Positions 5,281 through 29,750 of a DNA stretch of 37,904 nt are shown in pieces. Under the pieces are notes generated by a model, which did not search any database, was not told where the DNA came from, and worked only from the letters and a program-made list of their open reading frames with translations. The number at the start of each line of letters is the position of its first letter. Position 1 is the first letter of the stretch. Source of the DNA: Actinomycetota bacterium (GTDB taxonomy: Bacteria; Actinomycetota; Aquicultoria; Aquicultorales; Aquicultoraceae); assembly GCA_030018005.1 (NCBI GenBank), contig JASEGT010000017.1, forward strand, positions 1 through 37,904, read 5' to 3'. The position numbers were made by a program, and so were the translations under genes.

Positions 5281-5334
5281 CAAGAGAAGGACGGCTCTCC
5301 CGAGCCTCTAGGCCTTACAGAAAAAGATTTGACA

Positions 5335-22133: not shown

Positions 22134-23417
22134 ATGCTTGATTTGAGATGGGTTCGCGATAACATAGACGTCGTTCAGGAAGCGCTCGAAAAGCGCGCGG
22201 CCAAAGTAGACCTCTCGCGCTTCAAAGAGCTCGATTCGGAGCGGCGCACCCTGATTGTCAAGGTCGAGCATTTGAAAAACGAGCGAAACGTCGTCTCCGG
22301 CGAGATAGCCAAGCTTAAAAAAGCCGGCGCGGCGGCGGACGATAAAATCGAGGCGATGCGCACGCTCGGAGACGATATAAAAGAGCTTGATGGGCGGCTC
22401 GATGAGATTGAAGATGAGCTAGGCCGCCTGATGATGGATATCCCGAATATCCCGCATGCGTCGGTTCCGGTCGGCGAAGATGAGACCTGCAATCCCGAGA
22501 TAAGGACCTGGGGCGAGCGGCCGACCTTCGATTTCGAACCCAAACCCCACTGGGATTTAGGGCTCGACCTCGGGGTGCTCGATTTTGAACGCGCCGCCAA
22601 GATAACGCGGGCCCGCTTCGTTCTATACTGGGATTTAGCGGCCCGGCTCGAGCGCGCGCTATTGAACTTGATGCTCGATTTACATACCGGCACGCACGGC
22701 TACACCGAGGTCTTTCCGCCGATTCTCGTCAACGACGCCAGCCTTACCGGCACCGGGCAGCTGCCCAAATTCGCCGACGACCTCTTTAAGATAGAGGACG
22801 ACAACCTGTACCTCATACCGACGGCGGAGGTGCCGGTCACCAATATCCACCGCGACGAGATCTTTAGCGCGGATGATTTGCCGCGCCATTACTGTGCCTA
22901 TACGCCTTGCTTCAGGCGCGAGGCCGGCGCGTACGGGAAAGACACCCGCGGTCTTATAAGACACCACCAGTTCAACAAAGTCGAGCTGGTGAAGTTTGTC
23001 CACCCGGAGACCAGCTACGATGAACTCGAGAAGCTGACCGCCAACGCCGAAGCGGTTCTGCGCGCGCTCAAGATTCACTATCGCGTCATCTCGCTCTGCA
23101 CCGGCGACATCGGTTTTTCTTCGGCCAAGACCTACGATATCGAGGTATGGCTGCCCGGCTTCGGCGGCTTCAAGGAGATATCGTCGTGCAGCAATTTCGA
23201 AGATTTCCAGGCCCGGCGCGCCAACATCCGCTTTCGCGAAAACCCGAAAGCCAAGCCGCAGTTTGTTCATACACTCAACGGAAGCGGCCTGGCGATAGGC
23301 CGCACGGTCGCGGCGGTCTTCGAGAACTACCAGCAAGCCGACGGCACGATTCTCATCCCCGAAGCGCTCAAGCCCTACATGGGCGGCGCGGAGCGCATCG
23401 AGGCGAAGAAGTTTTAG
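22134..23417 (+). CDS. serS: Seryl-tRNA synthetase SerS
   Basis: Class II synthetase charging tRNA-Ser, 427 residues. The N-terminal long coiled-coil arm (about 27-105), which grips the long variable arm of tRNA-Ser, is evident from its Lys/Glu heptads. Catalytic motifs include [21 protein letters not shown] (motif 2) and [19 protein letters not shown] (motif 3). A strong GGAGG ribosome site overlaps the end of pheA. The four serine tRNA genes follow within 3 kb. Confidence 0.97.
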
Positions 23418-23560
23418 GGCGCCCGTGCTGGTGGCATAGATGCTGTGACCAACTCGCGGTTTAGGATGCTTGCGGCGCGGCGATAATCTTGTTCACATGA
23501 ATACGCCCGCCCATGGTGTTGCTGTATTCAAGTCTTGTCTAGGTAAGCGCATCGGACTCG

Positions 23561-23589
23561 TTGTTTGAGCGGGTGGGATGTGGTACACT
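23561..23589 (+). promoter_or_regulatory. Predicted promoter of tRNA-Ser(TGA)
   Basis: TTGTTT (23561-23566) and TACACT (23584-23589) with a 17-base spacer. The start would be near 23596, about 39 bases before the tRNA. The rest of the 217-base gap after serS holds no gene that I can see. Confidence 0.5.
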
Positions 23590-23634
23590 ACGCAATGGAA
23601 AAATTGCACGGCGCAAGCTGCGCATGCCATATAT

Positions 23635-23723
23635 GGAGAGGTGGCGGAGTCCGGTTGAACGCGGCGGTCTTGAAAACCGTTAGAGGCGTGAGTCTCTCGG
23701 GGGTTCGAATCCCTCCCTCTCCG
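23635..23723 (+). tRNA. tRNA-Ser(TGA)
   Basis: Class II tRNA. The acceptor GGAGAGG pairs with CCTCTCC, the anticodon loop is CTTGAAA (anticodon TGA) on stem GCGGT/ACCGT, and the T loop is TTCGAAT. The discriminator is G; CCA is not encoded. It reads UCA and likely other UCN codons. Confidence 0.95.
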
Positions 23724-23724
23724 C

Positions 23725-23757
23725 AGAAAAAGCCACCTTTTTAAGCGGCTTTTTCTC
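23725..23757 (+). terminator. Rho-independent terminator of tRNA-Ser(TGA)
   Basis: A ten-base stem, AGAAAAAGCC with GGCTTTTTCT, around a 12-base loop, placed two bases after the tRNA. The T-rich 3' arm serves as the release tract. Confidence 0.8.
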
Positions 23758-23838
23758 TTGTTCTTCTTTCTCGATTTTCGCGGACGAGCTGGTTATTATG
23801 ACCTGCCCGGATATGGCGACTCGAGATGTCATAGCGGG

Positions 23839-23867
23839 TGGACAAAGTCTATCGCCTGAGGTATAGT
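23839..23867 (+). promoter_or_regulatory. Predicted promoter of tRNA-Ser(GCT)/tRNA-Arg
   Basis: TGGACA (23839-23844) and TATAGT (23862-23867), 17 bases apart; the start near 23874 is 25 bases before the tRNA. It would transcribe tRNA-Ser(GCT) and tRNA-Arg(ACG) together. Confidence 0.5.
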
Positions 23868-23898
23868 AAGTATCTGATTTTATCGCGTATAGCGGCCT

Positions 23899-23989
23899 GG
23901 AGAGATGGCCGAGTCGGTCGAAGGCGCTCGCCTGCTAAGCGAGTAGGGGGTTATAAACTCCCTCGAGGGTTCGAATCCCTCTCTCTCCG
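23899..23989 (+). tRNA. tRNA-Ser(GCT)
   Basis: Class II tRNA with acceptor GGAGAGA/TCTCTCC, anticodon stem CTCGC/GCGAG with loop CTGCTAA (anticodon GCT), a long variable arm and T loop TTCGAAT. The discriminator is G, with no encoded CCA. It reads AGC and AGU. Confidence 0.95.
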
Positions 23990-24000
23990 CCATAATATTT

Positions 24001-24018
24001 TCTAGTCTAACGACTAGA
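24001..24018 (+). other. Spacer hairpin between tRNA-Ser(GCT) and tRNA-Arg
   Basis: TCTAGTC-TAAC-GACTAGA forms a perfect seven-base stem with a four-base loop, two bases before tRNA-Arg. It has no T run, so it is more likely a processing signal in a dicistronic tRNA transcript than a terminator. Confidence 0.45.
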
Positions 24019-24020
24019 AT

Positions 24021-24094
24021 GTGCCCGTAGCTCAGCTGGATAGAGTGTCTGACTACGAATCAGAAGGTCGGGGGTTCGAATCCCTCCGGGCACG
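24021..24094 (+). tRNA. tRNA-Arg(ACG)
   Basis: Cloverleaf with acceptor GTGCCCG/CGGGCAC, anticodon stem TCTGA/TCAGA, loop CTACGAA (anticodon ACG) and T loop TTCGAAT. The discriminator is G; CCA is not encoded. A34 must be deaminated to inosine by TadA to read CGU, CGC and CGA; tadA lies 1.4 kb downstream. Confidence 0.95.
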
Positions 24095-24102
24095 CGAAAT
24101 AG

Positions 24103-24127
24103 AAAGAGCCTATAGCGGCTCTTTTTT
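24103..24127 (+). terminator. Rho-independent terminator of tRNA-Arg
   Basis: AAAGAGCC and GGCTCTTT pair around the loop TATAGC, followed by a run of T residues. Confidence 0.85.
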
Positions 24128-24604
24128 GTTGGTGGCTAAACGCCTTGGATGAAAACCCACACAAAAGGAACTGCGACATACCGTGCCTGGTAGCGGATAT
24201 GTCGCAGCCGTATGGGATAAAATGTATAAAGGATATTATAAAGCCCGAGTTATGTTTTCGTCTCGAATGGCCAGCTCCCGATTGTAATCTTCATTTACCT
24301 CCCCTAAGTGCCGTGCCGGTTCGCCTATCGCTAAACTATCTAACAGGAATGCGTTTGTCTGCACCTACAGGCCATTATCGTTGATAGACGAGGGCGTATT
24401 AATAAAAATCCGGCAAGCGCGCTTATCTTTCTTGCTAGTGGTAGGATTTTCGCGGTAAGCGGTAAGGGTTGAACCGGTTCGACAAATGTGTGCCGGGGGG
24501 CGCCTGGTGGTAAATCTTACTAAAGCCCTCTTACCGCTTCGACGATAACTAGATAAACCGGAACCCTATTGGCAGCTCTAAACATCGAAGGGACGTAGCT
24601 TTTT
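24128..24604 (+). other. Gene-poor stretch with a candidate structured leader of the HD-GYP gene
   Basis: No convincing gene lies between the tRNA-Arg terminator and the HD-GYP gene. From 24404 on the sequence can fold strongly. AAAATCC (24405-24411) pairs with GGATTTT (24444-24450), enclosing GCAAG/CTTGC. Next, AAGCGGTAAG (24457-24466) pairs over ten bases with CTTACCGCTT (24530-24539), enclosing a near-palindrome (GTTGAACCGGTTCGAC) and a G-rich segment. The left arm contains a tandem GCGGTAA repeat. The stretch 24128-24384 has a 79-codon Cys-containing frame without a ribosome site, which I do not accept as a gene. I could not match any known riboswitch class. Confidence 0.45.
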
Positions 24605-25384
24605 ATGCACGACAAGACCTCGTTAGCAAGGTTAATCGAAACAGTTCACGCGCTGGCGGCGGGTGACTACCGGAACCGGATTCAAATCGATGAGGCCGGT
24701 GAGCTGGGCGCTCTGGCTGCCGAAGTAAACAAGCTCGCCGATGCCCACCAGATGGCGCACGAGACGATACGCGCGCTCAACCACCAACTTAAACGGACGA
24801 ACTTCGACGCGATAATGGCGCTGACCGAAGCCCTGAGTGCTAAAGACCCTTACACACGCGGTCATTCGGAGCGCGTCTCGATATATTCGCTGTTGCTCTC
24901 GGAAAGCCTGGGGTTAAAGGACGAGGAGATCGATGGGGTCCATATCGGCGCATACCTCCACGATGTCGGTAAAATCGGCATACCCGAGACAATCCTGAAC
25001 AAACAAGGGAAGCTCTCGGCGGACGAGTATAAGCAGATTATGGAGCACGCAAATATATCCGGGCAGATAGTCTCGCAAATCCCGAATCTGTCGCACATCG
25101 CGCAAATGGTCCGTTATCACCACGAGCGCTATGATGGAAACGGTTATCCCGATGGCTTAAGGGCGGACAATATACCGCTCGGTTCGCGAATCCTCTCTAT
25201 CGCGGACGCCTTCGATGCGATGACCTCGGTTCGCCCGTACCGGCCCATATACGAGCCGAAAGAGGCGCTCGTCGAGATAAAGAGCTGCTGCGGGACCCAG
25301 TTCGACCCGGCTCTCTGCGAGGTCTTTGTCGACGCCTACGCGCAGAACTTCGGCGAGTATCTTCCGTACGCGATTGCGTCGTAA
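24605..25384 (+). CDS. HD-GYP domain phosphodiesterase (cytoplasmic)
   Basis: Protein of 259 residues. The N-terminal 55 residues resemble a HAMP segment (TVHALAAGDYRNRIQIDEAGELGALAAEVNKL) but carry no membrane helix. The HD-GYP domain (about 72-250) shows HSERVS, LHDVGKIGIPETILNK, HHERYDGNGYPDGL and ADAFDAMTS. HD-GYP proteins hydrolyse c-di-GMP to GMP or pGpG, and some act on other cyclic dinucleotides. ATG at 24605 has a rather distant AAGGGA. An N-terminal truncation of a longer membrane receptor is one way to explain a HAMP without a helix. It is unrelated in arrangement to the larger GGDEF/HD-GYP gene at 16126. Confidence 0.88.
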   Translation: MHDKTSLARLIETVHALAAGDYRNRIQIDEAGELGALAAEVNKLADAHQMAHETIRALNHQLKRTNFDAIMALTEALSAKDPYTRGHSERVSIYSLLLSESLGLKDEEIDGVHIGAYLHDVGKIGIPETILNKQGKLSADEYKQIMEHANISGQIVSQIPNLSHIAQMVRYHHERYDGNGYPDGLRADNIPLGSRILSIADAFDAMTSVRPYRPIYEPKEALVEIKSCCGTQFDPALCEVFVDAYAQNFGEYLPYAIAS

Positions 25385-25491
25385 ATAAATCTGACTAAAT
25401 TCCCTCTAGCACAGTTGCTGCCTTTTGGCTTTGCGGACCCATGCCCGCCAGGCGAAATACTGTTAGAATACCCTTATGGTCTATTCCTTTT

Positions 25492-25513
25492 ATTCGAGTT
25501 TAATTCGAGGTTA
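25492..25513 (+). repeat. 11-base tandem repeat at the tadA ribosome site
   Basis: ATTCGAGTTTA is followed directly by ATTCGAGGTTA; the second copy supplies the GAGG ribosome site of tadA. Confidence 0.5.
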
Positions 25514-25519
25514 ATATAA

Positions 25520-26047
25520 GTGGTCGAATACGAAGCCGAAGAGGCTGACATCACATATATGAGAATGGCGATAGCCGAGGCGGTCGAGGCGGCGGAGGCC
25601 GGCGAGGTGCCGGTCGGCGCGGTAGTAGTCTGCGACGGAACGGTCGTAGCGACGGCGCGAAACGAGCGCGAAGGACGTGCCTCGGCGCTCGCGCACGCCG
25701 AGATTCTCGCCATCGAGGCGGCCTCGAAGAAACTGGGCCGCTGGCGCTTGAGCGATTGCACCATCTATGTTACGAAAGAGCCGTGCCCGATGTGCGCCGG
25801 CGCAATATTCCAAGCACGGATGGCGCGTCTCGTCTACGGCCCGTCTGACCCCAAAGGCGGTGCCGCCGGAACACTCTTCAACATCGTCGAAGACGAGCGT
25901 CTCAACTGGCGACTACCGGTCACCAGGGGTGTCTTGGAGGAGGAAAACGTCAAGCTGCTCCAGGATTTCTTTAGAGAGAGGCGGCAGCGACCGGGCGGCG
26001 ACACCGGCGAAGGAACCGCAGTTGCCCCGGCGGAAGAACAGCGCTGA
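25520..26047 (+). CDS. tadA: tRNA-specific adenosine deaminase TadA
   Basis: Deaminates A34 to inosine in tRNA-Arg(ACG). Protein of 175 residues. The zinc-site motifs HAE (H59, E61) and PCPMC (C89, C92) and the substrate region (ARLVYGPSDPKGGAAGTL) are all present. The first dozen residues and the last 25 (Pro/Ala/Glu-rich) extend beyond the usual core. GTG at 25520 has GAGG nine bases upstream. Its substrate tRNA is encoded in the same cluster, and the serS-tadA-SRP RNA-dnaX order is the one seen in Bacillus. Confidence 0.94.
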   Translation: MVEYEAEEADITYMRMAIAEAVEAAEAGEVPVGAVVVCDGTVVATARNEREGRASALAHAEILAIEAASKKLGRWRLSDCTIYVTKEPCPMCAGAIFQARMARLVYGPSDPKGGAAGTLFNIVEDERLNWRLPVTRGVLEEENVKLLQDFFRERRQRPGGDTGEGTAVAPAEEQR

Positions 26048-26155
26048 TAGACGTTGTGTTTGCCTGAATTAATTGATAGTATTAGAAAGCGCTTTGGGCG
26101 TGCCGCGCAAGACAGAACCAGACGGGATGCTTAAGGGCGGCAAAAACCGAATATT

Positions 26156-26244
26156 GGAGGAGTCGCATAGTCCGGCCGAGTGCGGCGGTCTCGAAAACCG
26201 TTAGGCCCGCAAGGGCCTCGAGGGTTCGAATCCCTCCTCCTCCG
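26156..26244 (+). tRNA. tRNA-Ser(CGA)
   Basis: Class II tRNA with acceptor GGAGGAG/CTCCTCC, D stem GCAT/GTGC, anticodon stem GCGGT/ACCGT with loop CTCGAAA (anticodon CGA) and T arm GAGGG/CCCTC. The discriminator is G; CCA is not encoded. It reads UCG. The acceptor, D stem and T arm are shared with tRNA-Ser(GGA) 140 bases downstream, so the two probably arose by duplication. Confidence 0.94.
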
Positions 26245-26246
26245 CA

Positions 26247-26270
26247 GAAAAGCTCCTCGGGGAGCTTTTT
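26247..26270 (+). terminator. Rho-independent terminator of tRNA-Ser(CGA)
   Basis: AAAAGCTCC and GGAGCTTTT pair around TCGG, ending in a T run. Confidence 0.85.
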
Positions 26271-26381
26271 CGATTTTCTTGCTCGTTGTTTAAGCGAGGC
26301 CTAGTGCCTGTTTGGTCAAAAAGATGAAAATCAGGCGCCTACGTGTTAAAATGCTAATGCTTGAAATTTAATATAGGTTTC

Positions 26382-26471
26382 GGAGGAGTCGCATAGTTCG
26401 GCCTAGTGCGCGCGACTGGAAATCGCGTTGGCGTTAATAGCGCCTCGAGGGTTCGAATCCCTCCTCCTCCG
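26382..26471 (+). tRNA. tRNA-Ser(GGA)
   Basis: Class II tRNA with acceptor GGAGGAG/CTCCTCC, anticodon stem CGCGA/TCGCG with loop CTGGAAA (anticodon GGA) and T loop TTCGAAT. The discriminator is G, with no encoded CCA. It reads UCC and UCU. It has no terminator of its own: its 3' end is one base from the start of the SRP RNA helix, so both are almost certainly made as one transcript. Confidence 0.94.
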
Positions 26472-26472
26472 C

Positions 26473-26745
26473 ATGACCGTGCTAGGTGGGGAGGTAGCGG
26501 TGCCCTGTATCCGCAATCCGCTATAGCGGGACTGAATTCCTGCTCCAGGCTCCCCGGTTGTGAGGTCGGTTGTTACGCAAGTGGTGTTGAAGGCTGGGTC
26601 CTGCGCAACGGAGACTCGTGAACCCCGTCAGGTCCGGGAGGAAGCAGCGGTAAGCGATCTTTTCCGTGTGCCGTGGGGAAGCCTGGCCGGAGCTAACTAC
26701 GTGGCAACGCTTGGGGCCGGATGTCAAAAGCAGGTGCACGGTCAT
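26473..26745 (+). ncRNA. ffs: Signal recognition particle RNA, large (Alu-containing) type
   Basis: RNA of about 273 nt. The 5' and 3' ends pair (ATGACCGTGC at 26473-26482 with GCACGGTCAT at 26736-26745). The 5' Alu-type domain resembles Bacillus scRNA (GTGCTAGGTGGGGAGGTAGC and following), and the Ffh-binding domain IV is unmistakable (GTCAGGTCCGGGAGGAAGCA near 26629). It works with Ffh to target nascent membrane and exported proteins. The domain IV loop reads GGGAGG where the common form is GGAAGG. Large SRP RNAs are typical of Firmicutes and some deep lineages rather than most actinobacteria. Ends are set by the terminal helix and may be a few bases off. Confidence 0.95.
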
Positions 26746-26763
26746 CTTATTGCAGGCATTGAG

Positions 26764-26789
26764 AAAGGCGCTCAAAGGGGCGCTTTTTT
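26764..26789 (+). terminator. Rho-independent terminator of the SRP RNA
   Basis: AAAGGCGC and GCGCTTTT pair (one G-T) around TCAAAGGG, followed by T residues, about 20 bases after the SRP RNA end. Confidence 0.8.
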
Positions 26790-26938
26790 CTATTCATACG
26801 CGCGCGTTTCGCGCTAAGCGAATCCTTCGATTTCAGCCTGGTCGGGCGCCGCCGGCGGTCGCCGTCTTCTTTGACTTGACCCGTCAAATCTGATACGTTT
26901 TGCTTAATCATTTAAGCGGCTACGACCGGAGGCTTATC

Positions 26939-28678
26939 TTGTCTTACGTTTCACTCTATCGGAAATGGCGGCCTCAGACCTTCGACGAGATAGCAGGTCA
27001 ATCCCACATAACCCAAACCCTTCAGAACGCAATCGATAAAGGACGCATCTCGCACGCATACCTCTTTTGCGGCCCGCGCGGCACCGGAAAGACGACGACC
27101 GCCCGAGCGCTGGCAAAAGCCATAAACTGCGTCGAGGGGCCGACCTCGAGCCCGTGTAATAAGTGCGAATCGTGCCGGTCGATAAATGACGGCAGCTCCA
27201 TCGACGTGCTTGAACTCGACGCCGCCTCGAACCGCCGGGTGGAGGAGATACGCGACCTCCTCGAGAAGATTCCATACAGCGCGAGCGGCGGAAACAAAAA
27301 GGTCTATATCATCGACGAGGTACACATGCTGACCACCGAGTCGTTTAACACGCTCTTGAAGACGCTCGAAGAGCCGCCGGAGCACGTCATCTTCGTGCTC
27401 GCCACGACCGAGCCGCACAAGGTGATCCCGACGATACTCTCGCGGTGCCAGCGGTTTGACTTCAGACGAATCTCCCCGCCCGATATCGAGGCGCGGCTCG
27501 CGCACGTAGCCGAGGCCGAGGGGATCTCAATAGAGACGGCCGCCCTATCGCTCATCTCGCATCATGCCCAGGGGGCGCTCCGTGACGCGCTGGGCGCGCT
27601 CGAGCAGCTCGGCTCCTATACTAACGAAAAGATAACGAGCGCCGATGTCATCGCATTGCTCGGGCTGACCGATAGTGAGCTTCTCTTCGATTTCACCGAT
27701 TTACTGAGCAAGGATGACCTTGCCGGCGGCCTTCTCTTCATAGACGAGCTGGTCGCCAAAGGAGTCGATTTGCGCCAGTTTATCCAGGACCTTCTCGGGC
27801 ACTTGCGCAACGTCTTTCTAAAGCAGAGTGTCCGGGATATGGAGCCGGCCGGCGTTCCCGACGACTTTAAAGAACGGCTTTCGTCACAAGCGGCCCAAAT
27901 CGAGGCGCAGACGCTCACCTCATATATACAGGTGCTCAACGATGTCTACGGACAATCCAGATGGTCCACCGACCTGCGCCTTCTCTTCGAAATAGCCCTT
28001 TTCAGGCTCGCCAAGAGAGAGAAGGACGCCTCTTTCGAGGGGATACTCCGTCGCCTGGAGCGCCTTGAGAGTGCGGCGCTCAACGGTGCGCTCCCGCCGG
28101 CGCCGGCCGCACCGGCCAGTGCGCCGAAGAAGCCGGCTCGAGCAACCACGCCGAACAAGCCGGATGGCGTCGTATCGACGGCCCCGCTCGAACCAGTCGC
28201 GCCGGTCGAACCGGTACCGGCGCAGGCGACGGAGGGGGGCGCTATCGCTGCGCCGCAGCCAAGCGGTGGTGCCATTGACATCGAGACGGTTCGCAAGGCG
28301 TGGCCGCAGGTGCTCAAGCTCGTCAAAGACAAGAAGCCGTCGCGCTACAATTTTTTTGCCGGCGGCAAACCTGTGCGTGTCGACAGCGGCGTGCTGGTTC
28401 TCGCACTCAAGAAAAGCGACAAGGAGTTTGTCGAGACGCCCGAAAACATCCAGCTGCTGCGCAATATCCTTAAGTTAGTGACCGGTTTCGACATCCCGAT
28501 CCACTGCGAACTCGCCAACGGCGCGCCCAAAACGGTCGCGGTATCGGAGGGCGATGCCGCGGCGGATGATATGCTCGAGCCGGATGATTACATAAAATTG
28601 GTTCAGGATACATTTGGTGCTAAGATAGTCGAAGATATTTCCGTCAAGGAGACCGAGAGTCAGGGGGAAGAATCGTGA
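26939..28678 (+). CDS. dnaX: DNA polymerase III subunit gamma/tau DnaX
   Basis: Clamp-loader ATPase of 579 residues. The TTG start at 26939 has GGAGG six bases upstream and gives the family N-terminus MSYVSLYRKWRP; a frame opening at 26900 lacks a ribosome site. The AAA+ core shows GPRGTGKT (45-52), a zinc site (C64, C73, C76, C79), DEVHML and SRCQRF. A Pro/Ala-rich linker lies at roughly 375-445, followed by a C-terminal domain. I see no A-rich slippery site followed by a hairpin, so no evidence for a shorter gamma form by frameshifting. It overlaps ybaB by four bases. Confidence 0.96.
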   Translation: MSYVSLYRKWRPQTFDEIAGQSHITQTLQNAIDKGRISHAYLFCGPRGTGKTTTARALAKAINCVEGPTSSPCNKCESCRSINDGSSIDVLELDAASNRRVEEIRDLLEKIPYSASGGNKKVYIIDEVHMLTTESFNTLLKTLEEPPEHVIFVLATTEPHKVIPTILSRCQRFDFRRISPPDIEARLAHVAEAEGISIETAALSLISHHAQGALRDALGALEQLGSYTNEKITSADVIALLGLTDSELLFDFTDLLSKDDLAGGLLFIDELVAKGVDLRQFIQDLLGHLRNVFLKQSVRDMEPAGVPDDFKERLSSQAAQIEAQTLTSYIQVLNDVYGQSRWSTDLRLLFEIALFRLAKREKDASFEGILRRLERLESAALNGALPPAPAAPASAPKKPARATTPNKPDGVVSTAPLEPVAPVEPVPAQATEGGAIAAPQPSGGAIDIETVRKAWPQVLKLVKDKKPSRYNFFAGGKPVRVDSGVLVLALKKSDKEFVETPENIQLLRNILKLVTGFDIPIHCELANGAPKTVAVSEGDAAADDMLEPDDYIKLVQDTFGAKIVEDISVKETESQGEES

Positions 28679-29007
28679 AGGGCCAGTACGGAAACATGAT
28701 GAAACAGGTACAGAAGATGCAGGCCGATATGGCGCGCGTCGAGCAAGAGCTAACCGAGACCAACATCGAAGCAAGCGCCGGCGGCGGGGCCGTCAAAGCG
28801 GTCGTCACCGGCAAGCAGCAAATCGTTGAGATAAAGATAGACCCATCGGTAGTCGACCCTGAAGACGTCGAGATACTCGAGGATATGGTTGTAGCCGCCG
28901 TCAGCGAAGCGCTTCGCCAATCGCAGGAACTCGCTCAGAGTAAGCTCGCCGCGGTGACCGGGCCGCTTGCCGGAGGTCTGGGCGGCCTAGGGTTGCCGGG
29001 CTTCTAG
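28675..29007 (+). CDS. ybaB: YbaB/EbfC family nucleoid-associated protein
   Basis: Small DNA-binding protein of 110 residues. The N-terminal helix (MMKQVQKMQADMARVEQEL), the signature strand region (IEASAGGGAVKAVVTGKQQIVEIKIDPSVVDP) and the C-terminal helix (DMVVAAVSEALRQSQELAQSKL) fit the family. A Gly/Leu-rich tail follows. The GTG start overlaps the dnaX stop (GTGA). dnaX-ybaB-recR is a widespread operon. Confidence 0.94.
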   Translation: MKGQYGNMMKQVQKMQADMARVEQELTETNIEASAGGGAVKAVVTGKQQIVEIKIDPSVVDPEDVEILEDMVVAAVSEALRQSQELAQSKLAAVTGPLAGGLGGLGLPGF

Positions 29008-29034
29008 CCCCACATATTCTAGCCCCACATATTT
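29005..29034 (+). repeat. 15-base tandem repeat after ybaB
   Basis: TAGCCCCACATATTC is followed directly by TAGCCCCACATATTT; the first copy contains the ybaB stop codon. It looks like a local slippage duplication. Confidence 0.6.
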
Positions 29035-29049
29035 TATCTCCAAATCAGG

Positions 29050-29055
29050 TATAAT
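29050..29055 (+). promoter_or_regulatory. Possible -10 element for recR
   Basis: A perfect TATAAT lies in the ybaB-recR gap about 100 bases before recR; no good -35 is visible. It suggests recR may also be transcribed on its own. Confidence 0.35.
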
Positions 29056-29150
29056 CAAGGGCAGCGCGAGTGCCGCGCACGCGCATTTTCAAGCTGACGG
29101 CTGTGAGGCAAACAGCTGAAAGCAGAAAGAAAGCAAGGTGGATTTTAAAT

Positions 29151-29750
<600 letters not shown>

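Follow-up and report, generated by a model that had tools for sequence, protein, structure and literature searches.

The tRNA-Ser(GGA) and SRP RNA genes considered here lie in a cluster spanning positions 22134-29750 of the window (the whole stretch of 37,904 nt that was analysed), which holds serS, four tRNA-Ser genes, tRNA-Arg(ACG), tadA, the SRP RNA gene, dnaX, ybaB and recR. The tRNA-Arg(ACG) gene, whose product is the usual substrate of TadA, is close to tadA. Among the DnaX proteins scanned, the named one with the highest identity (51%) comes from a Coriobacteriia MAG, which makes Actinomycetota the likely phylum of the host. The features of the tRNA-SRP RNA region, and the basis of each assignment, are as follows.

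26156-26270, + strand: tRNA-Ser(CGA), followed by a separate terminator (26247-26270); tRNA and terminator scans
26324-26352, + strand: likely promoter of the tRNA-SRP transcript, with -35 ATGAAA (26324-26329), a 17 nt spacer and -10 TAAAAT (26347-26352) preceded by TG; consensus scan and conservation upstream of the tRNA
26346-26374, + strand: possible second promoter, TTAAAA-17-TAATAT; weak consensus match, window genus only
26382-26471, + strand: tRNA-Ser(GGA); RF00005 and ARAGORN
26472, + strand: single base C, probably C74 of the tRNA; sequence and a survey of C74
26473-26745, + strand: large bacterial SRP RNA; RF01854 match (26477-26741) and closing helix
about 26764-26789, + strand: intrinsic terminator of the transcript, a hairpin followed by a U tract; sequence and fold
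26954-28678, + strand: dnaX, the gene downstream of the SRP RNA

The tRNA gene is delimited as 26382-26471 by RF00005 and 26382-26472 by ARAGORN, and has the cloverleaf, long variable arm, GGA anticodon and G73 discriminator (G26471) of a tRNA-Ser(GGA); CCA is absent from the gene. The RF01854 covariance match identifies the neighbouring RNA as a large bacterial SRP RNA, at 206.7 bits against a gathering score of 60 and over the full length of the model (positions 1-256). Its closing helix, ATGACCGTGC at 26473-26482 paired with GCACGGTCAT at 26736-26745, reaches four pairs past the ends of the model match, and only C26472 lies between the discriminator and the start of the helix at A26473. The preliminary description, which had placed the two RNAs one base apart with CCA unencoded, is borne out in both respects. 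Structure prediction for the joint RNA gives the tRNA and SRP RNA as two separate closed domains, with G73 and the C unpaired between them; the folding stability of the joint precursor is unremarkable (z -1.45), and folding energy by itself thus gives no support. The SRP RNA gene is single in the window genome, where tRNA-Ser(GGA) likewise has one close match, the other three matches being the Ser tRNAs CGA, GCT and TGA, all within the window.

Comparison of this junction across related genomes, which the preliminary description had proposed as a check, showed that it is kept in ten of the 11 sampled genomes of the family. All 11 contain the large SRP RNA, and in the ten fused genomes (five genera) tRNA-Ser(GGA) stands directly before it with one or two unpaired bases between. 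One base separates G73 from the SRP helix in the window genus, and two bases (CA, CC or CG) in the other four fused genera, a difference that arises because the closing helix is one pair longer there. The outermost pair in those genera is mostly G-C and is A-U in G009, a two-sided change indicating that the helix truly extends to within 1-2 nt of G73. An assembly artefact was ruled out, since the junction recurs in all ten of these genomes and across their five genera. When the phylum was searched by pattern for a tRNA T-loop just before the SRP RNA 5' end, 11 of 396 genomes matched, namely the ten fused genomes and G247, a member of another family whose contig stops within the SRP RNA; the reversed pattern was found in none of the 396. 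That other family (f14) shows close tRNA-Ser(GGA)-SRP RNA junctions at two loci, with the tRNA about five bases (L139, in G247) and 18 bases (L148, in G140) ahead of the SRP model start, possibly of independent origin.

No terminator and no promoter were found between tRNA-Ser(GGA) and the SRP RNA in the window. In the phylum at large, 91 of 108 non-fused SRP RNA loci carry a hexamer matching TATAAT or TATACT at five or more of six positions, located 4-16 bases upstream of where the SRP model begins, as do about 5.6% of upstream control windows. None of the ten fused loci passes this -10 test, and all ten lack any hexamer there with the obligatory A2 and T6. Upstream of the tRNA, a pair of the form RTGAAA-16/17-TAAAAT is found 29-33 nt ahead of the gene in G000-G003 and G005-G008; G009 has a poorer match, 28 nt away, and part of the G004 region reads N. 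The possible second promoter of the window genus would start transcription at or beside the tRNA 5' end. The upstream transcription unit is separate, since tRNA-Ser(CGA) has its own terminator. Downstream, the terminator at 26764-26789, as previously described, is evident in the fold and kept in the three other genomes of the window genus; a simple terminator scan of the window did not list it, probably because its U tract is base-paired to the stem's A tract. In fused genomes outside the window genus (L085-L088, L090, L091), a U-rich run follows the SRP closing helix almost directly, and the helix itself might act as terminator there.

The layout is thus that of a tRNA-led dicistronic unit, in which the second RNA lacks its own promoter, no terminator intervenes, and a terminator and an outer promoter, the latter recognised by consensus and conservation only, enclose the pair. 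The missing SRP promoter, the conserved promoter-like pair before the tRNA and the contrast with relatives together make it very likely that tRNA-Ser(GGA) and SRP RNA come from one transcript, and cotranscription appears to be the only simple reading of promoter loss combined with this layout. The earlier expectation of a shared transcript, with neither a terminator nor room for a promoter between the genes, is in this way strongly supported, and if the transcript is shared, the supply of SRP RNA would be tied to tRNA processing, as was also suggested. Should the SRP RNA nevertheless be transcribed from a non-consensus promoter inside the tRNA gene, its adjacency to the tRNA would be incidental. 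Promoters for minor sigma factors would be invisible to the scans used, which gave no candidate within the tRNA, but a -10 element at the right distance would fall in the acceptor/T-arm segment CCTCCTCCTCCG, which lacks any A, and relatives in the class and family carry a plain sigma-70 box, making such a promoter very improbable.

The eleventh genome of the family, G010, is a natural control for the fusion. There, a terminator hairpin follows tRNA-Ser(GGA), and the SRP RNA lies 417 nt further on behind a promoter of its own, TTGACA-17-TATACT, which ends ten bases before the SRP model start. With usual spacing, the predicted start is the A of ATGA, equivalent to the base after C26472 in the window. 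A DnaX tree places G010 beside the window genus (97/96), which would imply either that fusion happened twice or that it happened once and was reversed; however, a single clade of all fused genomes was not rejected by the AU test (p 0.21), and the tree therefore does not decide between gain and loss. Among relatives in the class, tRNA-Ser(GGA) lies 45 to more than 100 nt before the SRP RNA, with a promoter in some of the spacers (L101, L104), and it is plausible, from these arrangements, that the fusion arose by deletion of such a promoter-bearing spacer. At two loci, L093 (G026) and L098 (G027), the tRNA is 87 and 45 nt ahead of the SRP RNA with no clear -10 box, and the two RNAs are possibly cotranscribed across the longer spacer.

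The single base at the junction was evaluated by a survey of tRNA 3' ends, sampled from stretches of genomes rather than whole genomes. Of 27 tRNA genes in the family sample, 23 lack CCA, and a C follows the discriminator in all 23, representing about ten isoacceptors; outside the family, 19 of 20 CCA-less tRNA genes of the phylum encode C74. Many of these are related Ser genes, and the counts are accordingly not independent events. Encoded C74 occurs in the window at 5281, 23724, 24095, 26245 and 26472, as well as in G002, G008, G009 and phylum loci. C26472 is thus probably C74 of tRNA-Ser(GGA), and the rule points to tRNA 3' maturation that would end after C74. In P. acnes, an organism without an obvious tRNase Z, RNA-seq mapped endonucleolytic cleavage within encoded CCA, between its two Cs (PMC3848588). 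Cuts at the same place were detected by RNA-seq in S. coelicolor, alongside a tRNase Z homologue (PMC4681348), and so do not require the absence of RNase Z. A single endonucleolytic cut at the tRNA 3' end, making both RNA ends, fits the geometry of the junction and is held with moderate confidence. Counting against a cut at C74 is the two-base spacing in four of the five fused genera, which would leave a one-base 5' overhang on the SRP RNA there, and the role of C74 could instead be to block trimming by exonucleases, with no cut at that base.

The enzyme named in the preliminary description, RNase Z, was not supported as the cutter. No protein reached the TIGR02651 (RNase Z) cut-off in ten genomes drawn from the family and order, and no RNase Z could be assigned to the organism. 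The best candidate in the sister genera, an MBL protein encoded beside murI and the RNase PH gene (rph), was rejected, scoring higher as a cyclic-nucleotide phosphodiesterase (149 versus 133 bits), and the murI-rph protein was not found in three well-covered genomes of the window genus (G000, G002, G003). Apart from one weak match on contig C48, the PF12706 (Lactamase_B_2) proteins of the window genome were likewise rejected, being ComEC, RNase J, and glyoxalase-II-like and UlaG-like proteins. In these same three genomes, most sampled tRNA genes lack CCA, yet no RNase Z is recognisable.

If RNase Z nevertheless acted on the shared transcript, it would cut after G73 and the SRP RNA would begin at C26472. 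The enzyme of B. subtilis cleaves CCA-less tRNA precursors after the discriminator, and the window-genus spacer, reading CAT rather than CCA, would not block it; with no protein over the RNase Z cut-off in the ten genomes, and a best candidate that is phosphodiesterase-like and missing where coverage is good, this route is considered unlikely. RNase P, for which pre-4.5S RNA is a natural substrate in E. coli (PMC11143913), is a fair rival as cutter: it would cleave 5' of the SRP closing helix with the tRNA as leader, the tRNA 3' end being trimmed or completed separately. Since the window-genus helix starts directly after C74, the resulting ends would be identical to those of a cut after C74. 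The closing helix of a large SRP RNA here has no obvious 3' CCA-like tail, however, and RNase P would leave the family-wide C74 rule unexplained, so that its role at the junction is also doubtful.

The shared transcript might instead acquire its ends stepwise, by a cut elsewhere (of RNase III, RNase E/G or RNase Y type), after which exonucleases (RNase PH, RNase J) would trim from either side. RNase III matures the scRNA of B. subtilis. An RNase J site is also documented in that RNA (PMC3997798). The window genome contains an RNase J homologue and the sister genera an RNase PH gene; however, the two folded parts leave hardly any single-stranded RNA between them on which cutting or trimming could act, and a helix of 10-11 bp is short for RNase III, which makes stepwise maturation quite improbable.

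The preferred reading, to which a probability of about 0.6 is given, remains a dicistronic transcript in which the tRNA 3' end replaces the SRP promoter and one cut after C74 yields both ends. Transcription would begin upstream of the single tRNA-Ser(GGA) and stop at the terminator after the SRP RNA, which would occupy the latter half of this stable-RNA transcript, its own promoter having been lost and its 5' end being set instead by the tRNA 3' end. An endonucleolytic cut, most likely after C74 at 26472/26473, would free tRNA-G73-C74, to which CA would be added by tRNA nucleotidyltransferase, and the same cut would yield SRP RNA from A26473, where its closing helix starts. Adjacency, the absent promoter and terminator, conservation, single copies, the G010 contrast and the C74 rule are observed in the genomes; from them we infer cotranscription in vivo, the one cut, its exact position and the kind of enzyme. 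A more tentative extension holds that a putative endonuclease cutting tRNA precursors after encoded C74 replaces RNase Z in this group and, in the family, also makes the SRP RNA 5' end; no base being left between the RNAs, no SRP RNA would be produced unless an essential tRNA is matured.

Across this phylum the essential SRP RNA is almost always transcribed from a promoter of its own, and here that promoter appears to have been exchanged in evolution for a tRNA 3' end, with the SRP 5' base almost unchanged. Both RNAs at the junction are essential, and one cut could make an end of each. With the promoter-bearing relative G010 available, the change from promoter to tRNA end is directly testable. 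The junction would also allow the actinobacterial nuclease that acts between the two Cs of CCA in tRNAs to be followed cleanly, because the downstream product of the cut is a stable, abundant RNA with a mappable 5' end.

A literature search, with subscription journals mostly outside it, returned no report of a direct tRNA-Ser-SRP RNA junction in bacteria. The B. subtilis scr locus likewise encodes a large SRP RNA in a neighbourhood resembling that of the window, with the order serS, tRNA-Ser, tadA, SRP RNA, dnaX, ybaB, recR; it differs in that its scRNA is transcribed from a separate promoter and processed by RNase III, and at the Bacillaceae loci compared the tRNA does not abut the SRP RNA. 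Pre-4.5S RNA of E. coli shares an SRP RNA 5' end made by a nuclease that also serves tRNA maturation, but its leader is not a tRNA and it is a short-form SRP RNA with its own promoter. In Methanothermus fervidus, the 7S RNA gene is linked to a tRNA-Ser gene (Haas 1990, as cited in PMC3035299), although that locus is archaeal and linked to an rRNA operon, and the comparison covers gene linkage. Closer in arrangement are three Clostridia loci (L006, L010 and L062) in which tRNA-Ser(GGA) precedes the SRP RNA and leaves an SRP promoter little space or none; these pairs are probably also cotranscribed, but a gap of 12-21 nt from the annotated tRNA end and an encoded CCA would allow two separate ends. 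Finally, in the tRNA-snoRNA dicistronic transcripts of plants and Nanoarchaeum, and for Tko-sR44 with tRNA-Arg (PMC4247193), RNase Z makes the cut and the RNA released with the tRNA is of another kind than SRP RNA, but, as proposed for the window, cleavage at the 3' end of a tRNA defines where a second stable RNA begins.
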